Positions 6,844 through 58,584 of a DNA stretch of 64,000 nt are shown here, one piece after another. The position numbers and the translations under genes are program-made. The DNA is taken from contig NZ_CP036266.1 of the NCBI RefSeq assembly GCF_007744075.1, positions 1,141,001 through 1,205,000 on the forward strand, given 5' to 3'. The notes beneath the pieces are model-generated. The model was not told the origin of the DNA, searched no databases, and worked only from the letters and a program-made list of their open reading frames with translations. The stretch is from Gimesia chilikensis (GTDB lineage: Bacteria > Planctomycetota > Planctomycetia > Planctomycetales > Planctomycetaceae). Numbering within the stretch: position 1 is the stretch's first letter; each line of letters opens with the position of its first letter.

Positions 6844-7641
6844 ATGGCATCACCATCACAGTCCCTGTCCCAGGAGCGGCTGTCTGCGGAAGAAGTTGAG
6901 AAATTCGAGCAGGACGGCTACCTGATTTTTCGGAATCTCTGTCCCGAATCGCTGCGGCAGGAGATGCTGGCGGCGACGCAAGAGGGGCTGGCGCAGGTTG
7001 TGGAGCCGGTCGAGTATGAGGCGGACGTGGAGTATCCCGGTTCGCCCGCGTCGCGGCAGGTGATTGGCGGGGAGACCGTGCGGCGGCTGAAACAGGCGCA
7101 CAGCCGGGGGATGAGTTTTACCGATCTGGTGAACCACCCGGCGATTGTCAATCGTCTGACACCACTCCTGGGGGACGACTACGTGATGCCGCTGGCGCAC
7201 CATAACTGCATCATGACCAAGCAGCCGCAGTTCAGCAGCGATACGCTGTGGCACCAGGATATCCGTTTCTGGTCGTTCGAGCGGAAAGAGCTGATCAGTG
7301 TCTGGGTGGCACTGGGTGAAGAGAACCGGGAGAACGGTTGTCTGAAAGTGATTCCCGGAACTCACCGGATGGAATTCGGTCCCGAGCGTCTGGACGAGCG
7401 GATCTTTCTGCGTCCGGACCTGCCGGAGAATCAGGCTCTGATTGAGACCGGTGTATTGGCAGAACTGCATCCCGGGGATGTGTTGTTTTTCCACTGCCGA
7501 ACCTTTCATGCAGCGACACGGAACTTTACCGATCAGCCCAAGTTCTCGGCCGTGTTTACGTTCCGGCCAGCTGATAATCCGCCGGTGCCTGGTTCGCGGT
7601 CGGCGGCGCTGCCGGAGTTGATTATTCATACGCCTCGCTGA
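6844..7641 (+). CDS. Phytanoyl-CoA dioxygenase (PhyH) family protein
   Basis: A 265-residue Fe(II)/2-oxoglutarate-dependent dioxygenase of the PhyH family, soluble. The iron-binding HxD is H137-x-D139 in 'LWHQDIRFWSF'. The distal histidine is probably H222 in the 'GDVLFFHCRTFHAATRN' region, with an arginine following to hold 2-oxoglutarate. 'NGCLKVIPGTHRM' is typical of the family. Substrate unknown; planctomycetes carry many such genes. An in-frame TTG at 6835 exists, but the ATG at 6844 is the better start. Confidence 0.82.
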   Translation: MASPSQSLSQERLSAEEVEKFEQDGYLIFRNLCPESLRQEMLAATQEGLAQVVEPVEYEADVEYPGSPASRQVIGGETVRRLKQAHSRGMSFTDLVNHPAIVNRLTPLLGDDYVMPLAHHNCIMTKQPQFSSDTLWHQDIRFWSFERKELISVWVALGEENRENGCLKVIPGTHRMEFGPERLDERIFLRPDLPENQALIETGVLAELHPGDVLFFHCRTFHAATRNFTDQPKFSAVFTFRPADNPPVPGSRSAALPELIIHTPR

Positions 7642-49753: not shown

Positions 49754-49771
49754 ACTGGATTGCTGTTCCGT
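49754..49771 (+). repeat. attL core (18-bp direct repeat)
   Basis: ACTGGATTGCTGTTCCGT, identical to 58567-58584. The left flank adds CGGAAC (49748-49753) opposite GTTCCG (49765-49770), an inverted pair with an 11-bp spacer, as expected for a tyrosine recombinase core site. Confidence 0.85.
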
Positions 49772-49843
49772 TCAACCCCTATGGGCACCATGAGAGCGGC
49801 ACTTGATCAGCGAAAACTGACCAGATACAAACCGCTTGAATTG

Positions 49844-49852
49844 TGCTATAAT
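49844..49852 (+). promoter_or_regulatory. Extended -10 promoter at the left end of the element
   Basis: TGCTATAAT is a perfect extended -10 box (TG-N-TATAAT); no good -35 is present. A hairpin AGCCT/AGGCT (49864-49877) and a 10-bp palindrome GTTACGTAAC (49892-49901) follow within 50 bp and could be an operator for an HTH protein of the element. Confidence 0.5.
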
Positions 49853-49971
49853 GGACTGCGGTCAGCCTGCGGAGGCTTGATAGTGTGGCAAGTTACGTAA
49901 CAGTGCTTCCGGGTGTGGAGTAGCTCTCCCGTGGCTGTCTCTGGTGTGAAAGATCATCCGTCATTCCAGAG

Positions 49972-51075
49972 ATGGCCAGCCCGGGCTTTAGGGATGATGA
50001 CAAGATGAGCAATTTCTACAATCGACCGAATCGCAAAGGCGGGTTTGTCCACTTGGAATCGTGGTTCAATGATGCACTAGACCTGCTTGGTGTCCTCAGT
50101 CTCAAGGTGAGGCGGACACTAGCCGATACCCGTGATATTGTTAAGTGTGTCTCACTCAGGGAAACGCTTGACCAATTTTCAAATGGTTCTGATTCATTCG
50201 TAAGAGTGCAGCGCCTGAAAGAGAATTACGATAACGCTGGATTCTCACAGACACTGGAAGACATCAAAACAGCGTGTGGCACTGAGATATTAGCAGAGAC
50301 CTGTCTAATTAGCCTGAATGGCCGGGAGTTTCTTACTGCTGCAGAAGCGCTTTACAGCCTGCTTGTATCAATCATGCAGGTGCGAACAACCCTTGACTAT
50401 GCCGTTAAAGATTACGAAGAGACTCGACGTGCTTTTCTGGAAGAGGGTGAACCGGAAGACTGGGACCAGGAATGGTACGGCTCTGTTTTGTTTCAGGTTG
50501 GCGAATTATCAACTTGTGGTCTGAACGATGAGGCACTGAATCAGATTAGGAAGCTGTTCGACCGTCAGAAGTATGGATACAAAAACTGGCTGAGTAGTGA
50601 CGCGGTGGTACAGCAGAGAGGAGTTTATAAGGATCCAAGACAGCGGTTCCATGAACAGGGGAGAGAGTTGCGACAGCGTTCCCGTGAGTTTGGGCGTATC
50701 ACTCGCAGCAAGTCAGACCAGACACCAGACCAGCCACAGCCGGACACGGTCACTACAGGGGACGAAAAACAGAGGCAGCCACAGGGAAAAACCAAGAATC
50801 AAAAACCAGCTAAAAAGAGTGGGCGCCCCCCAAAAGATCAGCAACAAAAATGGCTTGGTGAGGCATTGCTCATACTGGCGGACAATCCCGACTGGACTAA
50901 TGTTAAAATTGCCAAAGCGGTGGGGGTCACCCCGTCTACCCTTGGCAGGAATCAAGTATGGAAAAACGCCAGAAAGGCAAACGCGGGGGACGGACCGACA
51001 AAAGGACATGTGAGCAATGATAGAAATGGTTCCCCTTATGTAGACGGGGAATATTACGACCACAACGAGGACTAA
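49972..51075 (+). CDS. Element-encoded HTH protein of unknown function
   Basis: 367 residues. The N-terminal ~230 residues are helical without a known domain. Residues ~240-290 are Gln/Lys/Arg-rich with an AT-hook-like 'KKSGRPPKD'. Residues ~295-335 look like a helix-turn-helix ('ILADNPDWTNVKIAKAVGVTPSTLGRNQVWKNARK'), so DNA binding is likely. First gene of the element, behind the extended -10 promoter, so it may be a regulator or part of replication control. ATG 50005 is an alternative start. Codon use is less GC-rich than in the host genes. Confidence 0.6.
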   Translation: MASPGFRDDDKMSNFYNRPNRKGGFVHLESWFNDALDLLGVLSLKVRRTLADTRDIVKCVSLRETLDQFSNGSDSFVRVQRLKENYDNAGFSQTLEDIKTACGTEILAETCLISLNGREFLTAAEALYSLLVSIMQVRTTLDYAVKDYEETRRAFLEEGEPEDWDQEWYGSVLFQVGELSTCGLNDEALNQIRKLFDRQKYGYKNWLSSDAVVQQRGVYKDPRQRFHEQGRELRQRSREFGRITRSKSDQTPDQPQPDTVTTGDEKQRQPQGKTKNQKPAKKSGRPPKDQQQKWLGEALLILADNPDWTNVKIAKAVGVTPSTLGRNQVWKNARKANAGDGPTKGHVSNDRNGSPYVDGEYYDHNED

Positions 51076-51179
51076 AATCATTGAAATGCAATCGTAAATG
51101 CAAAATCAAAAAAACTTTCAGCCCTGAATAACAGTCTGAAACGGCTTTTCAGAGCAGAAACAATGCAATGCAAATGCAA

Positions 51180-51217
51180 AACGGCGTGTACCTGTAGAGG
51201 TATGCGTCGTTTTTTTT
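51180..51217 (+). terminator. Terminator after the first element gene
   Basis: A 14-base stem including three G-U pairs (51180-51193 with 51198-51211), loop GTAG, then seven T. It separates the first gene from the small genes downstream. Confidence 0.85.
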
Positions 51218-51231
51218 ATGGAGCATTCGAA

Positions 51232-51432
51232 ATGAACACGAAGCAGATTAAACAAACAGAGGAGGACATTGCAGCCAGCCTGATCAATTCTTTCGCCGGT
51301 CTAGTGCATGCCAGACTGCGGGGGCTGTTCTCCAAGGCTGTAATGTATGAGTGCGAGCTTAGAGAGTCGGGAGTCAATGTCAGTTTTACCAGTGAAAAAG
51401 GAGGTGAGTCATGCAGCAATCAGGCTCTGTAG
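51232..51432 (+). CDS. Small hypothetical protein of the element
   Basis: 66 residues, helical, no known domain ('IAASLINSFAGLVHARLRGLFSKAV'). The ATG at 51232 has GGAG 8 bases upstream and lies just past the terminator hairpin; the longer frame from 51163 would run through that terminator. Its last 22 bases overlap the next gene, and it encodes that gene's ribosome site. Confidence 0.55.
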   Translation: MNTKQIKQTEEDIAASLINSFAGLVHARLRGLFSKAVMYECELRESGVNVSFTSEKGGESCSNQAL

Positions 51433-51623
51433 TTGTCGGTGAGGTCGAGCCTGACAAGCTCTACACATTGGAGTCGTTTAAAAAGGCCACTGGTCTGAAG
51501 GATTGGGCGCTGAGAACTGCCCGAAAGGCTGGGCTGAAAATGCATCAGGCAGGAAATCGGAAATTCGTGAAAGGACAGGACTTTATTGACTATCTCGAAT
51601 CGTTGGACACTGCAACCAAGTAA
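51411..51623 (+). CDS. Excisionase-like small HTH protein
   Basis: 70 residues. 'YTLESFKKATGLKDWALRTARKAGLKMHQAGNRKFVKGQDFIDYLES' is the winged-HTH pattern of excisionases and MerR-like DNA-binding domains: helix-turn-helix, then a basic wing and 'KGQDFIDYL'. Together with the integrase it would direct excision, or it may act as a repressor. A GGAGG lies 7 bases upstream. An AACCCCC/GGGGGTT inverted repeat follows the stop codon without a T-run. Confidence 0.7.
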   Translation: MQQSGSVVVGEVEPDKLYTLESFKKATGLKDWALRTARKAGLKMHQAGNRKFVKGQDFIDYLESLDTATK

Positions 51624-51675
51624 CAGAACAACCCCCAAAGCTGGACGGGCTCAGGGGGTTGCAAGTGTTCCCATT

Positions 51676-51692
51676 AAGGCAAGCAAATAGGA
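51676..51692 (+). repeat. 17-bp leader motif, copy 1
   Basis: AAGGCAAGCAAATAGGA lies 21 bp upstream of the ATG at 51714. A copy with one difference lies at 54761-54777, ahead of the ATG at 54789. Each includes an AGGA that can serve as a ribosome site in the second case. Confidence 0.55.
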
Positions 51693-51713
51693 AGCAATCA
51701 AGGTAACTCAATT

Positions 51714-52031
51714 ATGTTGAATATTTCAGCGAACACAACCCCATTACGAAAAAGTAAATTCAATTTCCACTCCATCCATCTGACGAGCACAGATCCTGCG
51801 GAGGTGTCCGTCAGTCTCACCATTCCCGGCATTCTCTTCACCATCAATTCCACTATGGCCGGTAGTCAGTTTTACTCCTATCCCCAGTTTCAGACGGTCG
51901 TTTCCCTGGAACACGGTGTAATCCCGTACGTTCCAGAGATCGAGCAAGAGCAGTGCATTCCCACTCGATCACGAATATGGCGTGAGCTGATCCTTGCTAA
52001 TGCCTCAGAGCTGGTCGGGGGTGCTAAATGA
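51714..52031 (+). CDS. Small hypothetical protein of the element
   Basis: 105 residues, beta-rich in character, no known domain or membrane segment. It overlaps the primase gene by 4 bases (ATGA), so the two are translationally coupled and probably work together in element replication; that is inference from position only. AAGGT lies ~10 bases upstream of the ATG. Confidence 0.6.
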   Translation: MLNISANTTPLRKSKFNFHSIHLTSTDPAEVSVSLTIPGILFTINSTMAGSQFYSYPQFQTVVSLEHGVIPYVPEIEQEQCIPTRSRIWRELILANASELVGGAK

Positions 52032-54706
52032 TAACGAAACACCACGATAAGGAGATCGTTTCAGGGCAACTCAGGGGGAATGAGGTTCCCTTTCTGGTCA
52101 GCCTTGGGATACCTGCTGACTGTCTGGACGGGAGGCACCATCCCTGCCCCAAGTGTGGGGGTTCAGATCGTTTTCGGTTCGATCCGGTTAAAGGATTCGC
52201 AATCTGTAACCAGTGTTTCAGCCAAGGCAACGGGGATGCAATCTCTATTGCTCAATGGTGGAACGGGATACCGTTTCCAGATGCTGTGAATCTGGCCGGT
52301 GAATACCTGAATGTTTCCAACTCCCAGCCAGTGAAGCGGGAGAAGCCAGCACCAAAGAAACCAGCGGTGCCTGTATCAGATCAGATTGAACGACTGGAAG
52401 CCGATCAGGGCAGGTTCGATGCATGGGCTGAAACCAAACCCCCGATAACGGGGGCAGCGGTTGCCAAGTCGGGCGCGTTGCTCTGCCTCTGGCCGAAGAG
52501 AGCACCACAGGGCAAGCAGATCGAGTGCATTGCGTTCCCTGCCTATCGTGATGGCTCAGAGCCTGCGGGAATTATTCTCTATCGGTCGAACGGGGAAAAC
52601 TTCCCAGAGATCGAGAACGGACCAGGAGAGCGCAAGACGCATCTTTTAAAGGGCTCTCAGGATGGCTGGGTGATATCTGGCGATCTGGACGCAGCGGAAA
52701 CCATTATCAAGGTTGAGGGGGTTCCTGATTGGCTGGTACTCGCTCCCCACGTTCCAGACGGCTATGCAGTTGTGACCAATACCCATGGCGCGGGATCTGC
52801 TGCCAAGAATTGCCCACTCGATCCGTTTAACGGGAAACGGGTAATCATCATCGGGGATGCCGACGAGAGCGGCGTGAGTGGTGCTAATGGGCTGGCCCGG
52901 GAGGTTTCCCCGTATGCACTGGAAGTCAAGGTAATCATCCCAGACGGTGAGATTGCCGAGAGGGGCGGAAAGGATTTAAGAGACGTTATGAATGAGAATC
53001 TGCAGTCTGGCTACTCCCTGCAGGATACCGTCAGAGGGATCTTGAAAAAGGCAGAACAGCAAGAGCCATTTCAGCCGGTTGAAGATGAACCAGCACGGGA
53101 TGAGACGGACGACGGACCAGGCATAGAGCACAAAGAGCCGGAGCAATACGAGTCGATACCCGTTGACTGCTTCCCCTCTGTTCTGGCCAAGTATGGAAAG
53201 GAAGCTGCGGACTGTATCGGCTGTGATCCATGCTTTGTGATGCTGCCTTTGCTGGTGGCGACTGGCTCACTTCTGGGTGGTAAGCGGTGCCTGTTCTTTA
53301 ACTCGAAATATCAGATTCCCTCTAACCTCTGGGGCGCTGTAGTGGCTCCCAGTGGGACAGGTAAATCCCCGGGATTCAATGCTGCCCTATCTCCCATGTT
53401 CAAGCTACAGGCTTTTATTGAGGAAAAGAACCGGGAGGCGTTCGACCAGCACGACAAAGACAGGCTCACTTATGAGTCAGAATTGAAGGACTGGAAGCAG
53501 AAAGCGCGGAAGGCAGACACAATCCCCCCTGATGAACCGGAGAAGCCAGAACCACCAGCGGTGAAGGCGTACACAATCGACGATTCGACATCAGAGGCAA
53601 CGGTACTGTTGCTGAAAGATAATCCGAACGGGTTTCTGCAGCAAAAGGACGAGCTGTCAGGGCTGTTTGCAGATCATGATAAATACACGAAAGCAAAGGG
53701 CTCGGATGCTGCGATGTATCTGAAAGCCTTTGACGGAACACCACTGCAGAACCACAGGAAGGGGGACAGGAAGCCAATCTACATCCCCAGACCGTTAATC
53801 AGTCTGGCCGGCGGTATTCAGCCAGCAATCCTGAAGGTGTCGATTCCGCATACTTACCGGCAAAACGGAATGATGGGGCGTTTCGTGTTCGTATATCCCC
53901 CAGAGAAGCCGTTACCGCTTCCCTCTACCAAAGGTGTGTCCGAAAAGACAGAGAGAGAAATTGACCAGCTGTATCAAACCCTCTGCGATCTGGCACCATA
54001 CAAGACCCTGGACAACGGCGGGTACGTCCCCCAGAGGGTCTATCTGTCTGATGATGCCATGAGAGCCTATGAACGGTTCTTTAATCAGAATCGGGATGAG
54101 TGGTTCTTTAAGGGCGATCTGGTGCGGTCCGCATGGTCTAAATTCAATCAGATCGTGCTGAGAATCGCGCTAATATTCCAGTGTGTCGAGAATGCCACCA
54201 GTGGCGACGATGGGCAGCGGGTGAGCCTGCAGACGATGCAGAACGCAATCCGCCTGACTGAGTTCTTTAAAAAGGAAACTCTGCGGGTGTATCGAATTTT
54301 TGATTCCGAGGATGAGCCAGAAGAAACCCCAGAGCAGAAGCAGTACAGACGCCTGTTTGAGTTTGTGAAGGACAAAGGCGGTACTGTCTCAGTCCGTGAG
54401 ACTCAGCAGGGTGTGAGGTTCAAGACTGCGGATGAGACGGAAAAGGCACTTGGCGAGCTGGTTAAAACCGGGGCTGCAGAGTGGGTAGACATCCCCACAA
54501 AAAAGAAAGGCAGACCATCCCGGGGGATCAGTTTGAAAAACATGAAACAGTGTAACAGTGTAACACAACAGCAAAAACCGCTTGTTTTAAGCGGTAGTGT
54601 TACAGGAGAGGGTGAGTTTTCAGGCTTTGAACCATTCCAAGAGCCGGAACAGGCCGAAGCCACAGCGCCGGATGATCTGGGGGATTTCATGGAATATCTG
54701 GACTAA
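52028..54706 (+). CDS. Primase-helicase: zinc finger, TOPRIM and DUF3987 domains
   Basis: 892 residues. A DnaG-like zinc finger has C40, C43, C60, C63 ('CPKCGGSDRFRFD', 'CNQC'). A TOPRIM fold holds E230 in 'IIKVEGVPDWL' and D277/D279 in 'IIIGDADESG'. From ~375 a DUF3987 region carries a P-loop 'APSGTGKSPG' (~440-449) and acts as the ATPase/helicase part. The C-terminus (~790-840) looks like a winged helix. This layout is common in phages, satellites and plasmids and should prime replication of the element. Confidence 0.85.
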   Translation: MITKHHDKEIVSGQLRGNEVPFLVSLGIPADCLDGRHHPCPKCGGSDRFRFDPVKGFAICNQCFSQGNGDAISIAQWWNGIPFPDAVNLAGEYLNVSNSQPVKREKPAPKKPAVPVSDQIERLEADQGRFDAWAETKPPITGAAVAKSGALLCLWPKRAPQGKQIECIAFPAYRDGSEPAGIILYRSNGENFPEIENGPGERKTHLLKGSQDGWVISGDLDAAETIIKVEGVPDWLVLAPHVPDGYAVVTNTHGAGSAAKNCPLDPFNGKRVIIIGDADESGVSGANGLAREVSPYALEVKVIIPDGEIAERGGKDLRDVMNENLQSGYSLQDTVRGILKKAEQQEPFQPVEDEPARDETDDGPGIEHKEPEQYESIPVDCFPSVLAKYGKEAADCIGCDPCFVMLPLLVATGSLLGGKRCLFFNSKYQIPSNLWGAVVAPSGTGKSPGFNAALSPMFKLQAFIEEKNREAFDQHDKDRLTYESELKDWKQKARKADTIPPDEPEKPEPPAVKAYTIDDSTSEATVLLLKDNPNGFLQQKDELSGLFADHDKYTKAKGSDAAMYLKAFDGTPLQNHRKGDRKPIYIPRPLISLAGGIQPAILKVSIPHTYRQNGMMGRFVFVYPPEKPLPLPSTKGVSEKTEREIDQLYQTLCDLAPYKTLDNGGYVPQRVYLSDDAMRAYERFFNQNRDEWFFKGDLVRSAWSKFNQIVLRIALIFQCVENATSGDDGQRVSLQTMQNAIRLTEFFKKETLRVYRIFDSEDEPEETPEQKQYRRLFEFVKDKGGTVSVRETQQGVRFKTADETEKALGELVKTGAAEWVDIPTKKKGRPSRGISLKNMKQCNSVTQQQKPLVLSGSVTGEGEFSGFEPFQEPEQAEATAPDDLGDFMEYLD

Positions 54707-54760
54707 CAACGAGCGTTTCCGGTGCCCTGCTTCTGTCATGGCCGGGCGCCTCATTTTCCC

Positions 54761-54777
54761 AAGGCAAGCAGATAGGA
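54761..54777 (+). repeat. 17-bp leader motif, copy 2
   Basis: AAGGCAAGCAGATAGGA, one base different from 51676-51692. The TTCCC before it is also shared, though a 3-base insertion separates it from the motif in copy 1. It lies 11 bp before the ATG at 54789. Confidence 0.55.
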
Positions 54778-54788
54778 GAGTTCTACAG

Positions 54789-55214
54789 ATGGTGAGCAAG
54801 ACATTCAAAATTGAATTAGAGGGCGTCAACGATTGGATTACGACTGAAGGGGCAGAGGGGAAACTCAAGCGGATTGCGGGTGCCTGCGGATTGCGGGTTC
54901 TGTCTCTCCAGCCCCTTGACGAACAGGAAGACCCAGACGCCAGTATGCAGGCCCGGTTAATTGACTGGATCCGGGACCAGGGCGGCACTAGCTCAGTAGG
55001 GGACGTGGTGAAGGCGTTTGGTTTCCGGTCTGCAGAGGATGCGTTTCAGATGATGCGAAGACTGACTGATTCCGGCGCGGGGTGCTGGCTCAGTCTGCCT
55101 CTTGAGGCTGCTGGTGTCCCGCTTGCGGTGGTTGAACTATTCGACTCTGGCCGGAGCGTCCTATCTGGGCTTCAGACTGCATCAGGTGCCCCACAGGAGA
55201 CAGGAGTAATATAA
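54789..55214 (+). CDS. Hypothetical protein of the element
   Basis: 141 residues, soluble. The first ~45 residues ('FKIELEGVNDWITTEGAEGKLKRIAGACGLRVLSLQ') are similar to the start of the protein at 55354, so the two are paralogs. Residues ~60-105 could be a small winged helix ('ARLIDWIRDQGGTSSVGDVVKAFGF', 'DAFQMMRRLTDSGAG'). The ATG at 54789 has AGGAG ~9 bases upstream; the longer open frame from 54597 overlaps the primase gene in another frame and is unlikely. Confidence 0.6.
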   Translation: MVSKTFKIELEGVNDWITTEGAEGKLKRIAGACGLRVLSLQPLDEQEDPDASMQARLIDWIRDQGGTSSVGDVVKAFGFRSAEDAFQMMRRLTDSGAGCWLSLPLEAAGVPLAVVELFDSGRSVLSGLQTASGAPQETGVI

Positions 55215-55353
55215 CGAGCGTTATTCCATCTGCGGCGAGTGGGGGACGTCAGCGGGGCTTGTGGGTCCTCTGGATCGACTCCACCAGCTGCAGACCTACG
55301 AGCAGTAACGGCGTCACAGGTAAGTTTACGAACGCACTGAAAAGGATTGTGAG

Positions 55354-55578
55354 ATGAAAGCAGAGCTGAGAGTGGAAGCAGAGACGGTCAGTGATGGCGC
55401 GTGTTTGGAAGAGTTTGAAAAGGCAATAGCACAGGCGGCGGGTTCCTGCGGAATGCGGGTGGTCTCAATCCATGGCGGGGATTCACTGGCAGAGCGGATA
55501 GCTGAGGCCGGAATGATCGACGCGGCAAAGCGTGGTTTCTTCGATGGTGAAGGACAGACACCGGAGCAGAACCGATGA
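55354..55578 (+). CDS. Small hypothetical protein, short paralog of the 54789 product
   Basis: 74 residues. 'LRVEAETVSDGACLEEFEKAIAQAAGSCGMRVVSIHGGD' aligns with the N-terminus of the 54789 protein (AGxCGxRVxS). The winged-helix part is missing. It overlaps the next gene by 4 bases (ATGA). AAGGA lies upstream of the ATG. Confidence 0.55.
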   Translation: MKAELRVEAETVSDGACLEEFEKAIAQAAGSCGMRVVSIHGGDSLAERIAEAGMIDAAKRGFFDGEGQTPEQNR

Positions 55579-55985
55579 CAGTGATACCCGGAAGGAAGAA
55601 ACGGAAAGAGTTTCTCAAGGAACTGAATCGGCATCTCGACAAAGGCAATACAAAGGGCCGTAAGCGTGCCTATGTTGCGATTCCGATTGATCGACCGGAG
55701 GCAAAGCAACTGCAGCCAGAGCCACAGGAGCAGCCTCAGACGGTGCCTGCTGATGATCTACCGGAAGTATTCGAAATCCTACCATCACAGCGGACATTTA
55801 ACGTGAATCCTGATTGTGGGGATGAGGTGTTCATCCATGTGATTAACACCTCTGATCCGGTCAAAGCTCAGCAGAAAGCAGAGAGCTATCTCAAGCGACA
55901 CGCGCAGGACTTGCTAGAAGCCGGTCAGTTGGACACCAGACAGCATGAGCAGAACTGTACCTGCTCGAATGAATGGTTGAATTGA
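55575..55985 (+). CDS. Small hypothetical protein of the element
   Basis: 136 residues: a basic N-terminus ('GRKKRKEFLKELNRHLDKGNTKGRKR'), a Pro/Gln/Glu linker and a C-terminal part with three Cys ('HEQNCTCSNEW'). No domain recognised. Translationally coupled to the gene before it. Confidence 0.55.
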   Translation: MTVIPGRKKRKEFLKELNRHLDKGNTKGRKRAYVAIPIDRPEAKQLQPEPQEQPQTVPADDLPEVFEILPSQRTFNVNPDCGDEVFIHVINTSDPVKAQQKAESYLKRHAQDLLEAGQLDTRQHEQNCTCSNEWLN

Positions 55986-56392
55986 TCCGCCTGTATCCCG
56001 TCTCTGTCTGGCATGGAAGCCGGGCCGGGGTGGGGCCTGCGGGCTTGGGTCCTCCTGACGGATTCAACGCGCGCTACTGGGAACACTGCGACCAAAACCC
56101 GCACATAATATTTTTTTAAGAGTGTCCGTCGGTCCTATTATGAAGCACCAACACAATAAAAACAGGTCATGTTATGGGGTGGTGAAGGACTCGCATACGA
56201 CACGGGCGGCGGTTAATAAAGTGGGTCCCTCTGGGATGGGGTATAGCGCGTCAGTTTCCCACTATGGAAATCTTGGGCGTGAAATGTTTTTCAGGGCTGC
56301 ATCATCATCACCACTATGGCCGGAACAGGTGCTGTAATCTCAGCAGAATGAGTGGGGCGGTGAGTGATGCACACAAATTGAAAGGAATGGAA
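55986..56392. other. 407-bp spacer within the element
   Basis: GC-rich at first, sharing words such as GGCTTG and GGTCCTC with the spacer at 55215-55353, then AT-rich (CATAATATTTTTTTAAG near 56104-56120), which could be a promoter. Open frames here have no ribosome site and I do not call a gene. Confidence 0.4.
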
Positions 56393-56803
56393 ATGGTAGT
56401 TACGAAAGAGCGAGTAGAGACGGTTACAGACTTGGCGGTACAGCTGGAGGTAAGCCGCCGAACTATTCAGGACTGGAAAAAGAAACCAGGGTTCCCAGTA
56501 GAGCGGGATGGTTCGTTCATCCCGTCCAAGGTTGCGGAGTGGAGAAAGCGAACATTCACAGAGAGACATGATTTTAAAGACCGTCTAAGGGGCAACCGGG
56601 TAACAGATCAGGTTCAGACACTGCTTGAAGAGTTGCGGGAACTGCCAGACGAAATGGCGAAGATGTTGCCAGAGGACTACCGGCAGGACTGTTCGCGGTG
56701 GTTTGAGCTGTCTCTTGAAGAGGCAATCAGGAGGGCGTTTGACGGTGGTCAGTGGGGCCTGATGTACGAAAAGGGAGAGCTGAGAGCCACAGGGCAGCGG
56801 TGA
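56393..56803 (+). CDS. HTH protein, Nu1-like (terminase small subunit-like)
   Basis: 136 residues. Residues ~8-50 are a helix-turn-helix of the phage Nu1/HTH type: 'VTDLAVQLEVSRRTIQDWKKKPGFPVERDGSFIPSKVAEWRKR'. The remainder is helical ('LEELRELPDEMAKMLPEDY'). Such domains recognise DNA for packaging or act as regulators; without a large terminase here, a satellite that uses a helper's packaging motor would fit. AAAGGA sits 6 bases upstream of ATG 56393; ATG 56387 is an alternative. Confidence 0.65.
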   Translation: MVVTKERVETVTDLAVQLEVSRRTIQDWKKKPGFPVERDGSFIPSKVAEWRKRTFTERHDFKDRLRGNRVTDQVQTLLEELRELPDEMAKMLPEDYRQDCSRWFELSLEEAIRRAFDGGQWGLMYEKGELRATGQR

Positions 56804-56865
56804 TTGCGATAAATCAACAGAATGAGAATTGATGTTTTACTTATTATTTAACAGGACACAAGGCA

Positions 56866-57234
56866 ATGATCAAAGATGAGGACTTCCCGAACGAAGGCGA
56901 AACCATAACAGCCAAATACGAAGACTATTTCACAATCATGATTGAGGGACATGAAGACCCTGATTTGTGTTATGTCGCAATACACTGGCTCCCATCCAAG
57001 ACGTTAATTGCTTTCAAGGATCCAATCGGAAAAGACCGTTCACACTGGGCAATCTCTGCGATTTTCGCACAGTATCCGGGCACAGAGTTTGAAGTTGAAA
57101 AGAAGGCGGCAGTCTCAGACAGCAAAAACAACATAAATCAAAGTTATGAATTTGCAATGTCTGGCGGCGGTCATACAGCAGAATACAAAGTCTTGGACGA
57201 GATGCGAGAGGCAGCCCACTTGAAGGGTTATTGA
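56866..57234 (+). CDS. Hypothetical protein of the element
   Basis: 122 residues, soluble, alpha/beta in character ('CYVAIHWLPSKTLIAFKDPIGKDRSHWAISAIFAQYP'). No domain recognised. AGGACACAAGGC precedes the ATG. The 56804-56865 leader is AT-rich and may carry a promoter. The stop codon lies 41 bp before the integrase start. Confidence 0.55.
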   Translation: MIKDEDFPNEGETITAKYEDYFTIMIEGHEDPDLCYVAIHWLPSKTLIAFKDPIGKDRSHWAISAIFAQYPGTEFEVEKKAAVSDSKNNINQSYEFAMSGGGHTAEYKVLDEMREAAHLKGY

Positions 57235-57275
57235 GCGATAGTTTTTTCAGAAGTAACAGAAAAGGAGCTGAAACA

Positions 57276-58502
57276 ATGATCAATGTGTATCTATGCAAGC
57301 GGAAGACTAGCAGCAACTATTACATGCGGTGGACTGATCCTGAATCTGGCCGGGATATCTGGCAGAGCACTAAGACCAGGATCAAACGAGATGCCGAACG
57401 CCTACAGCGGTCAACAGAGCGCGAGTTAAACGAGGGGACATTCTGCAAGCTCTCCCCGATCAGCTGGGTAGAGTTCCGTGATCGGTACGAGACAGAGCAG
57501 GCGGTATCATTGGCTGCCCGGACGCAGAACAAAATCAATACCGTGATGAACTATGTGGAAAGACACCTGAACCCTAAGAAGCTCAGGGAACTGAACGAAA
57601 CGAAGATCAGCAAGCTGGTTAAGAAGCTCAGGGAGCAGGGGCTTGAAGAGATCACGATTAAGTACAGTCTCGGACACCTGCGGTCTATGCTCAACTGGGC
57701 AAAGACGCAGAAGCTGATAGCACAGGTTCCCGAGTTCCCGAAACTCAAGCGGGCCAGAGGTAAAAAGGTAATGCGTGGTCGACCGATCACACTTGAAGAG
57801 TTCGAGCGTATCATTAAGGCAATCCCGGCGGTGATGAAACCACTCGGGCAGACACCAGCCAGCATGGAGCGACACAGGCAGGTTGTCCAGTCGTGGGAGT
57901 TCTATCTCTGGGGCTTGTGGTATTCCGGTCTGAGGCTCACAGAGTCCCTACAACTGCACTGGGAACGCGAGGATGGTCTATTCGTCGATCTGGACGGAGA
58001 GTTCCCCATAATGCGAATCAGGGCCGAAGCTGAGAAAGGGAACAAAGACCGACTCTTGCCGATCACCCCAGACTTTGCAGAGTTCCTGCAGGCAGTACCA
58101 GAGGACCAGAGAACCGGGCCAGTGTTTAAGCCACTCCCGAACCGATGCCACGATACGGAACTGATCAGGGAATCAATCTCGAGACTGGTTGCCAAGATGG
58201 GAGAGAAAGCGGGTGTGATCGTCGGTGATAAAGGGAACATCGACAAGGTAACCGGGGAGCGAAAACCCCGCTACGCGTCTGCTCATGATTTCCGTAGGGC
58301 GTTCGGTGTCCGATGGTCCCGCAAAATGCAGGTGTTCGAGCTGAAAGAGCTAATGCGACACCAGAGCATTAAAACGACTGAGGAATTCTATCTGGAACAA
58401 CATACGCAGGATACCGCGCGGTCGATCTGGGCAGCCTGTAAGGTCGATCAACGGGATAATTCACGTAACAGTTCAGGGAGTGCCGACCATGCGAAGCAGT
58501 AA
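57276..58502 (+). CDS. int: Tyrosine recombinase (integrase)
   Basis: 408 residues. N-terminal arm- and core-binding parts (~1-165, SAM-like helices ~62-140), then the catalytic domain with R220 ('YSGLRLTES'), K257 ('EKGNKDRLLPI'), H337-x-x-R340 ('SAHDFRRAFGVRW'), H362 ('MRHQSI') and Y372 ('EEFYLEQH'), so the active site is complete. It integrates and, with the small HTH protein, probably excises the element. GGAG lies 8 bases upstream of ATG 57276; a TTG at 57231 overlaps the previous gene. The stop codon is 64 bp from attR. Confidence 0.93.
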   Translation: MINVYLCKRKTSSNYYMRWTDPESGRDIWQSTKTRIKRDAERLQRSTERELNEGTFCKLSPISWVEFRDRYETEQAVSLAARTQNKINTVMNYVERHLNPKKLRELNETKISKLVKKLREQGLEEITIKYSLGHLRSMLNWAKTQKLIAQVPEFPKLKRARGKKVMRGRPITLEEFERIIKAIPAVMKPLGQTPASMERHRQVVQSWEFYLWGLWYSGLRLTESLQLHWEREDGLFVDLDGEFPIMRIRAEAEKGNKDRLLPITPDFAEFLQAVPEDQRTGPVFKPLPNRCHDTELIRESISRLVAKMGEKAGVIVGDKGNIDKVTGERKPRYASAHDFRRAFGVRWSRKMQVFELKELMRHQSIKTTEEFYLEQHTQDTARSIWAACKVDQRDNSRNSSGSADHAKQ

Positions 58503-58566
58503 CAGTGCGTTATATACTGTATTTGTAGTGTTTGCGGGCTCTCTATTTATGACTGGCTCTAATGCT

Positions 58567-58584
58567 ACTGGATTGCTGTTCCGT
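58567..58584 (+). repeat. attR core (18-bp direct repeat)
   Basis: Identical to the attL core at 49754-49771. Identity ends sharply on both sides (C/T before, T/A after). It lies 91 bp before the ATG of the metallophosphoesterase gene. Confidence 0.85.

Follow-up and report, generated by a model that had tools for sequence, protein, structure and literature searches.

Most descriptions of phage satellites come from Firmicutes, enterobacteria and vibrios, together with some marine bacteria. An earlier note on the DNA studied here had remarked that they are little described in planctomycetes, and this fits the open literature, in which we found phage satellites and planctomycetes together in no paper (most subscription journals and preprints were outside the scope of the search); priority is not claimed. 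Among the described families, the phage-inducible chromosomal minimalist islands (PICMIs) of Vibrionaceae are marked by an integrase, a DUF3987-type primase and short direct repeats, with fis as the hallmark insertion site (PMC10803314).

We analyzed a 64-kb stretch of the Gimesia chilikensis chromosome (the window), which carries an integrated element of 8.8 kb. This element resembles PICMIs and Gram-negative PICIs most, and there is no named satellite family of which it carries every marker that we tested. Like PICMIs, it is small and capsid-less and encodes an integrase, a small DNA-binding protein and a primase with the DUF3987 domain (PF13148, 1.3e-64), one of the two domains, DUF3987 or DUF5906, that serve as the PICMI primase marker; its direct repeats measure 18 bp against 17 bp, and the presence of anti-phage genes in some members is a further likeness (PMC10803314). 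Unlike PICMIs, which are about 6.1 kb long, it lies between ubiD-type and metallophosphoesterase-like genes rather than next to fis, its xis-like protein has no match to the AlpA regulator, and it possesses a Nu1-like protein together with an integrase of a planctomycete clade. With the Gram-negative PICIs that use Rpp packaging redirectors (PMC6739421) it shares an integrase, a regulator and a primase, and its winged-HTH protein is putatively of the TerS/RppC DNA-binding type, but its integrase is the last gene and the Nu1-like assignment is modest. The own capsid and packaging genes of capsid-forming PICIs (cfPICIs; PMC11389934) are represented not in the window element, which has no capsid, but in sister islands: L085, L096 and L097 share the capsid gene, and the latter two add a small terminase to it, whereas, unlike in cfPICIs, neither a large terminase nor a portal was seen in these capsid-bearing sisters. 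Finally, searches of the window element matched neither the relaxase of an integrative mobilizable element nor the head, packaging-motor and tail genes of a prophage.

Boundaries and insertion site

The ends of the element are set exactly by the 18-bp direct repeat ACTGGATTGCTGTTCCGT (Table 1), which occurs in two copies only in the complete 8.29-Mb genome, so that the attL/attR pair proposed in the earlier note is confirmed as the sole one genome-wide. In 40 order-1 Markov simulations repeated 18-mers arose at an average of 0.025 per window, against three in the real window. The other two exact 18-bp repeats, at 7222/32297 and 8037/8059, are unconnected with the element.

When joined, the flanks form a 209-bp intergenic region between the ubiD-type and the metallophosphoesterase-like gene. 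The earlier note had proposed to look for this empty site in relatives, and in 11 sister Gimesia genomes the joined flanks indeed match as a single continuous stretch, with 94-96% identity in three (G001, G005, G009) and 72-79% in eight (G002, G003, G004, G007, G010, G013, G015, G016); genomes G006, G008, G012 and G014 were not scorable and were left out. A single intact copy of the 18-bp core is present in the empty sites of G001, G005, G009, G002, G004 and G016, and at least one of its bases is changed in the remaining five (G003, G007, G010, G013, G015). In G011 the same site is occupied by a related element, split over two contigs: the left flank continues into the element on contig C125, where the xis-like gene, gene D and the primase start lie beside the left end, and the right flank begins on C473. 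The empty sites with a single repeat and the G011 element support the boundaries, and insertion at this site appears to have happened on at least two occasions. The repeats are single in empty relatives and the tyrosine integrase is intact, as characterizes a site-specifically integrated element; the locus is a precise integrase-type insertion that most sister species lack at this position.

No tRNA gene was found at the att site of the window element, and Rfam gave no match. The core of the empty site sits instead within the dyad CGGAACA-CTGGATTGC-TGTTCCG, an arrangement that could be read as two inverted integrase contacts flanking a crossover region. Furthermore, an arm-like motif, [ACG]GTAACAGT[GT]C, has three copies in the 64-kb window, in one orientation and all near the element ends. 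The sister islands L085, L096 and L097 each have own motifs common to their two ends, at a depth inside attL of 114-124 bp compared to 123 bp in the window element; these motifs look like putative integrase arm sites.

Table 1. Features of the window element and of its flanks, in window coordinates.
Feature	Position	Strand	Remarks
ubiD-type gene, left neighbour	start 49653	-	
attL core, 18-bp direct repeat	49754..49771	+	exact match; one fused copy in empty sites
arm-like motif CGTAACAGTGC, near attL	49896..49906	+	
gene A, 367 aa, probable DNA-binding regulator	49972..51075	+	weak C-terminal HTH, sub-threshold
small ORF, 66 aa	51232..51432	+	no family match
gene C, xis-like, 70 aa	51411..51623	+	relatives in sister elements
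gene D, 105 aa, shared	51714..52031	+	relatives in L101 (85%), L084, L089, L092
gene E, 892 aa, Zn-ribbon primase fused to DUF3987 helicase	52028..54706	+	
gene F, 141 aa, related to gene E C-terminal domain	54789..55214	+	
gene G, 74 aa, short gene F relative	55354..55578	+	
gene H, 136 aa	55575..55985	+	family upstream of integrase in about ten elements
gene I, 138-aa Nu1-like winged-HTH protein	56387..56803	+	phrog_57 1.1e-7
gene J, 122 aa	56866..57234	+	relative in G014 element; no family match
gene K, 408-aa tyrosine integrase	57276..58502	+	phrog_1 2.3e-26
arm-like motif CGTAACAGTTC, near attR	58464..58474	+	
arm-like motif AGTAACAGTGC, near attR	58498..58508	+	
attR core, 18-bp direct repeat	58567..58584	+	exact match; one fused copy in empty sites
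metallophosphoesterase-like gene, right neighbour	start 58676	+	

Gene content of the element

The element comprises about eleven genes, in the order regulator A, small ORF, xis-like C, D, primase-helicase E, F, G, H, Nu1-like I, J and integrase K. Several features reported in the earlier note held in full, namely the co-orientation of the genes (all on the + strand), the primase-helicase (with a Zn_Ribbon_Prim match of 6.6e-9 besides that to DUF3987), the complete tyrosine integrase and the absence of capsid, tail and transfer genes: searches against Pfam and PHROG families gave no match to a capsid, portal, large terminase, tail or relaxase among the genes of the element. The catalytic residues of the integrase, R220, K254, H337xxR340, H362 and Y372, are unchanged across ten relatives. 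Three other assignments stood in part. The HTH protein (gene A) has HTH matches, all of them sub-threshold; its N-terminal relatives are the first gene in L101 and L091. The excisionase-like protein (gene C) has no Pfam match or other family match of its own, and its identity is carried by relatives at the same place in at least nine sister elements, always with a replication gene downstream. The Nu1-like protein depends on its match to phrog_57, a small-terminase family, and is weaker than claimed.

Relatives of gene E are present in genomes G014, G004, G001 and G011. The C-terminal domain of gene E and genes F and G form a small paralogue family inside the element (54311-55578). Gene H is shorter than its relatives, and a fold search with the AlphaFold model of its family (pLDDT 61) returned no significant match. 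In the gap ahead of the xis-like gene (51086-51179) ATGCAA occurs four times, and these copies are possible iterons or operator sites.

For the Nu1-like protein, a four-sequence profile compared with the PDB matched the lambda TerS (1j9i) and the PICI protein RppC (6hlk) at 3e-4 to 5e-4. The gene I protein as a single sequence matched neither of these structures, and the profile match may be carried by the other members of the profile; its weak AlphaFold model (pLDDT 72) had no significant fold match, and its Pfam matches are to general HTH families, below cut-off. With modest confidence, gene I would encode a small terminase or a packaging redirector.

These genes could also be what is left of a prophage that lost its late genes and kept an integrase, a regulator, replication genes and a small-terminase remnant, no longer mobile as a unit. 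The phage type of the replication and Nu1-like genes and the short gene H would fit such decay, but all the main genes are intact and the ends exact, and independent decay would not predict many sister islands of like size and order at tRNA sites, so that we consider this origin unlikely.

Sister islands in Gimesia

Relatives of the integrase occur in 13 of the 16 other Gimesia genomes (14 of 17 counting the own one), and 78 of the 79 genome loci of the integrase clade belong to Planctomycetota. About fifteen integrase-relative loci in Gimesia genomes were inspected, and other copies, sought at the suggestion of the earlier note, were found as elements with related integrases, xis-like proteins and primases. 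Five islands have clear ends; they span 9.2-14.6 kb and are bounded by 44-51-bp repeats at tRNA genes (Lys, Arg or Thr). This integrase family evidently inserts small islands at specific sites, at an intergenic dyad here and at tRNA genes in the sisters. The integrase, H, the xis-like protein, the primase/F group, Prim-Pol primases and D recur across the islands, with a replication module that varies by member (DUF3987 or Prim-Pol). The gene order of L089 (in G011) is close to that of the window element: regulator, xis, D, primase, F, Nu1-like, H and integrase. What emerges as new, judging from these shared genes, is that the window element is one of a genus-wide family of small satellite-like islands.

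The bounded L096 and L097, of only 9.2 and 9.9 kb, encode an HK97 capsid and a small terminase (PF05119, 4.1e-23; phrog_83, 2.5e-32 and 4.9e-31), and gave no match to a large terminase or a portal; L085 encodes a protease-capsid fusion. In a PHROG tally of 78 proteins from six bounded elements, no large terminase, portal or tail family was among the 25 most frequent of 85 families. Anti-phage-type cargo was found in L082 (type I restriction genes), L088 and L094 (TIR or Schlafen proteins) and L092 (MmeI). Several loci lie on MAG contigs without both ends, which makes their cargo less certain than the cargo of the five bounded islands. A relative in G014 is larger than the window element, at about 18 kb (L081:5350-16000, L106:1-7412), and contains a fused primase-helicase, two F-family genes, two Nu1-like genes, a head-maturation-type protease and a more distant integrase.

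The anti-phage-type cargo of several sisters would also suit a plain integrative island that moves by another route, such as conjugative mobilisation, transformation or vesicles, with the primase serving copy-up after excision and the Nu1-like protein acting as a transcription factor. The weak Nu1 evidence for the window protein, with its general sub-threshold HTH matches in Pfam, points the same way; against it, no relaxase was matched, and sisters whose integrases belong to this family encode capsids and well-matched small terminases. We judge this possibility improbable, and a conjugative island in particular was set back for want of a relaxase match.

Helper searches and the satellite reading

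We looked for an excised or packaged form of the window element and found no close relative in viral contigs or phage records. Scanned with the integrase and the primase as single sequences, the viral contigs gave no relative; an integrase profile matched 32 of them, at identities of 24-47%, and all four that were checked were linear records. In the phage and plasmid collections the integrase had no match and the primase partial matches only. One viral contig, L170:1-10480, was considered as a circularly permuted satellite with integrase, primase and TerS, and this was rejected when a second integrase was seen to follow the first: the C-terminus of an integrase of this clade leads into a second integrase, an ATPase, a small terminase and an HK97-type capsid-like gene, probably the junction of two elements in tandem.

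As for a helper, the G. chilikensis genome has no PF05065 capsid, GpA-type terminase or Terminase_6N, and no complete resident helper was therefore found. A large-terminase-like gene (phrog_2, 2.2e-11) adjoins an HK97-type portal in it (G000:C1:7817495-7820703; L264:11496-14704), with no head-tail cluster next to them, and the capsid part seems missing. This portal occurs in 17 of 17 Gimesia genomes (75-98% identity where compared), 11 of which also have a conserved capsid gene (84-99%), and in G002 the portal cluster includes adaptor and tail genes (L266, L267). The genus-wide terminase/portal cluster is gene-transfer-agent-like or a domesticated prophage. A helper for the window element would presumably have to be external.

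Taken together, we read the window element as an integrated phage-satellite-like island that depends on a helper phage, with a probability of roughly 0.68. This is the best reading because the family has a shared core and two of its members encode a capsid and a small terminase and yielded no match to a large terminase or portal; the proposal of a phage satellite in the earlier note thus gains support from sisters with the same type of integrase and xis-like protein. It is further supported by the exact boundaries, the 11 empty sites and the same-site element in G011, by arm-like motifs that lie close to each end, as deep inside the element as those of the sisters, by the combination of integrase, xis-like protein, replication module and packaging-type protein with no particle or conjugation gene, and by the sister islands, with their tRNA att repeats, capsid genes, anti-phage-type cargo and the gene order of L089. 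The joint presence of an integrase, a DUF3987-type primase and short direct repeats, as in PICMIs, adds to this. The reading is weakened by the failure to find a helper or a free form and by the modest Nu1-like identity.

The capsid-bearing sisters might themselves be small or partial phages of a different lifestyle that share integrase and xis by recombination. The differing replication modules of the members and the integrase of this clade beside another, capsid-bearing element in L170 could be explained in this way; however, xis, F-type and H-type proteins are common to the islands besides the integrase, and the small size of the bounded L096 and L097 also speaks against it, making this explanation very improbable.

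If the window element is a helper-dependent satellite, infection or induction of the helper would lift the repression exerted by the first-gene regulator, and the integrase and the xis-like protein would recombine the 18-bp cores, releasing an 8813-bp circle that the primase-helicase would replicate from an origin within the element. The Nu1-like protein would steer the helper's packaging motor onto satellite DNA, either by serving as a small terminase itself or by pairing, like RppC, with the small terminase of the helper; helper heads and tails would then carry this DNA to a new cell, where the integrase would reinsert it at the same site. Sister elements instead carry a different small terminase with their own capsid, or anti-phage-type genes. 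On a tentative view, to which we give slightly less than even odds, the satellite family would be specific to Planctomycetota, with a single integrase/xis/H backbone that alternates between three strategies. With similar reserve, these may be a capsid-less form with a Nu1-like protein, as in the window, a form with its own capsid and small terminase that relies on the motor, portal and tail of the helper, and anti-phage carriers.

The exact att sites and the existence of empty and occupied strains make excision and transfer open to direct testing. A satellite family recurring in most Gimesia species would, if true, bring phage satellites into a phylum whose phages have been little studied.
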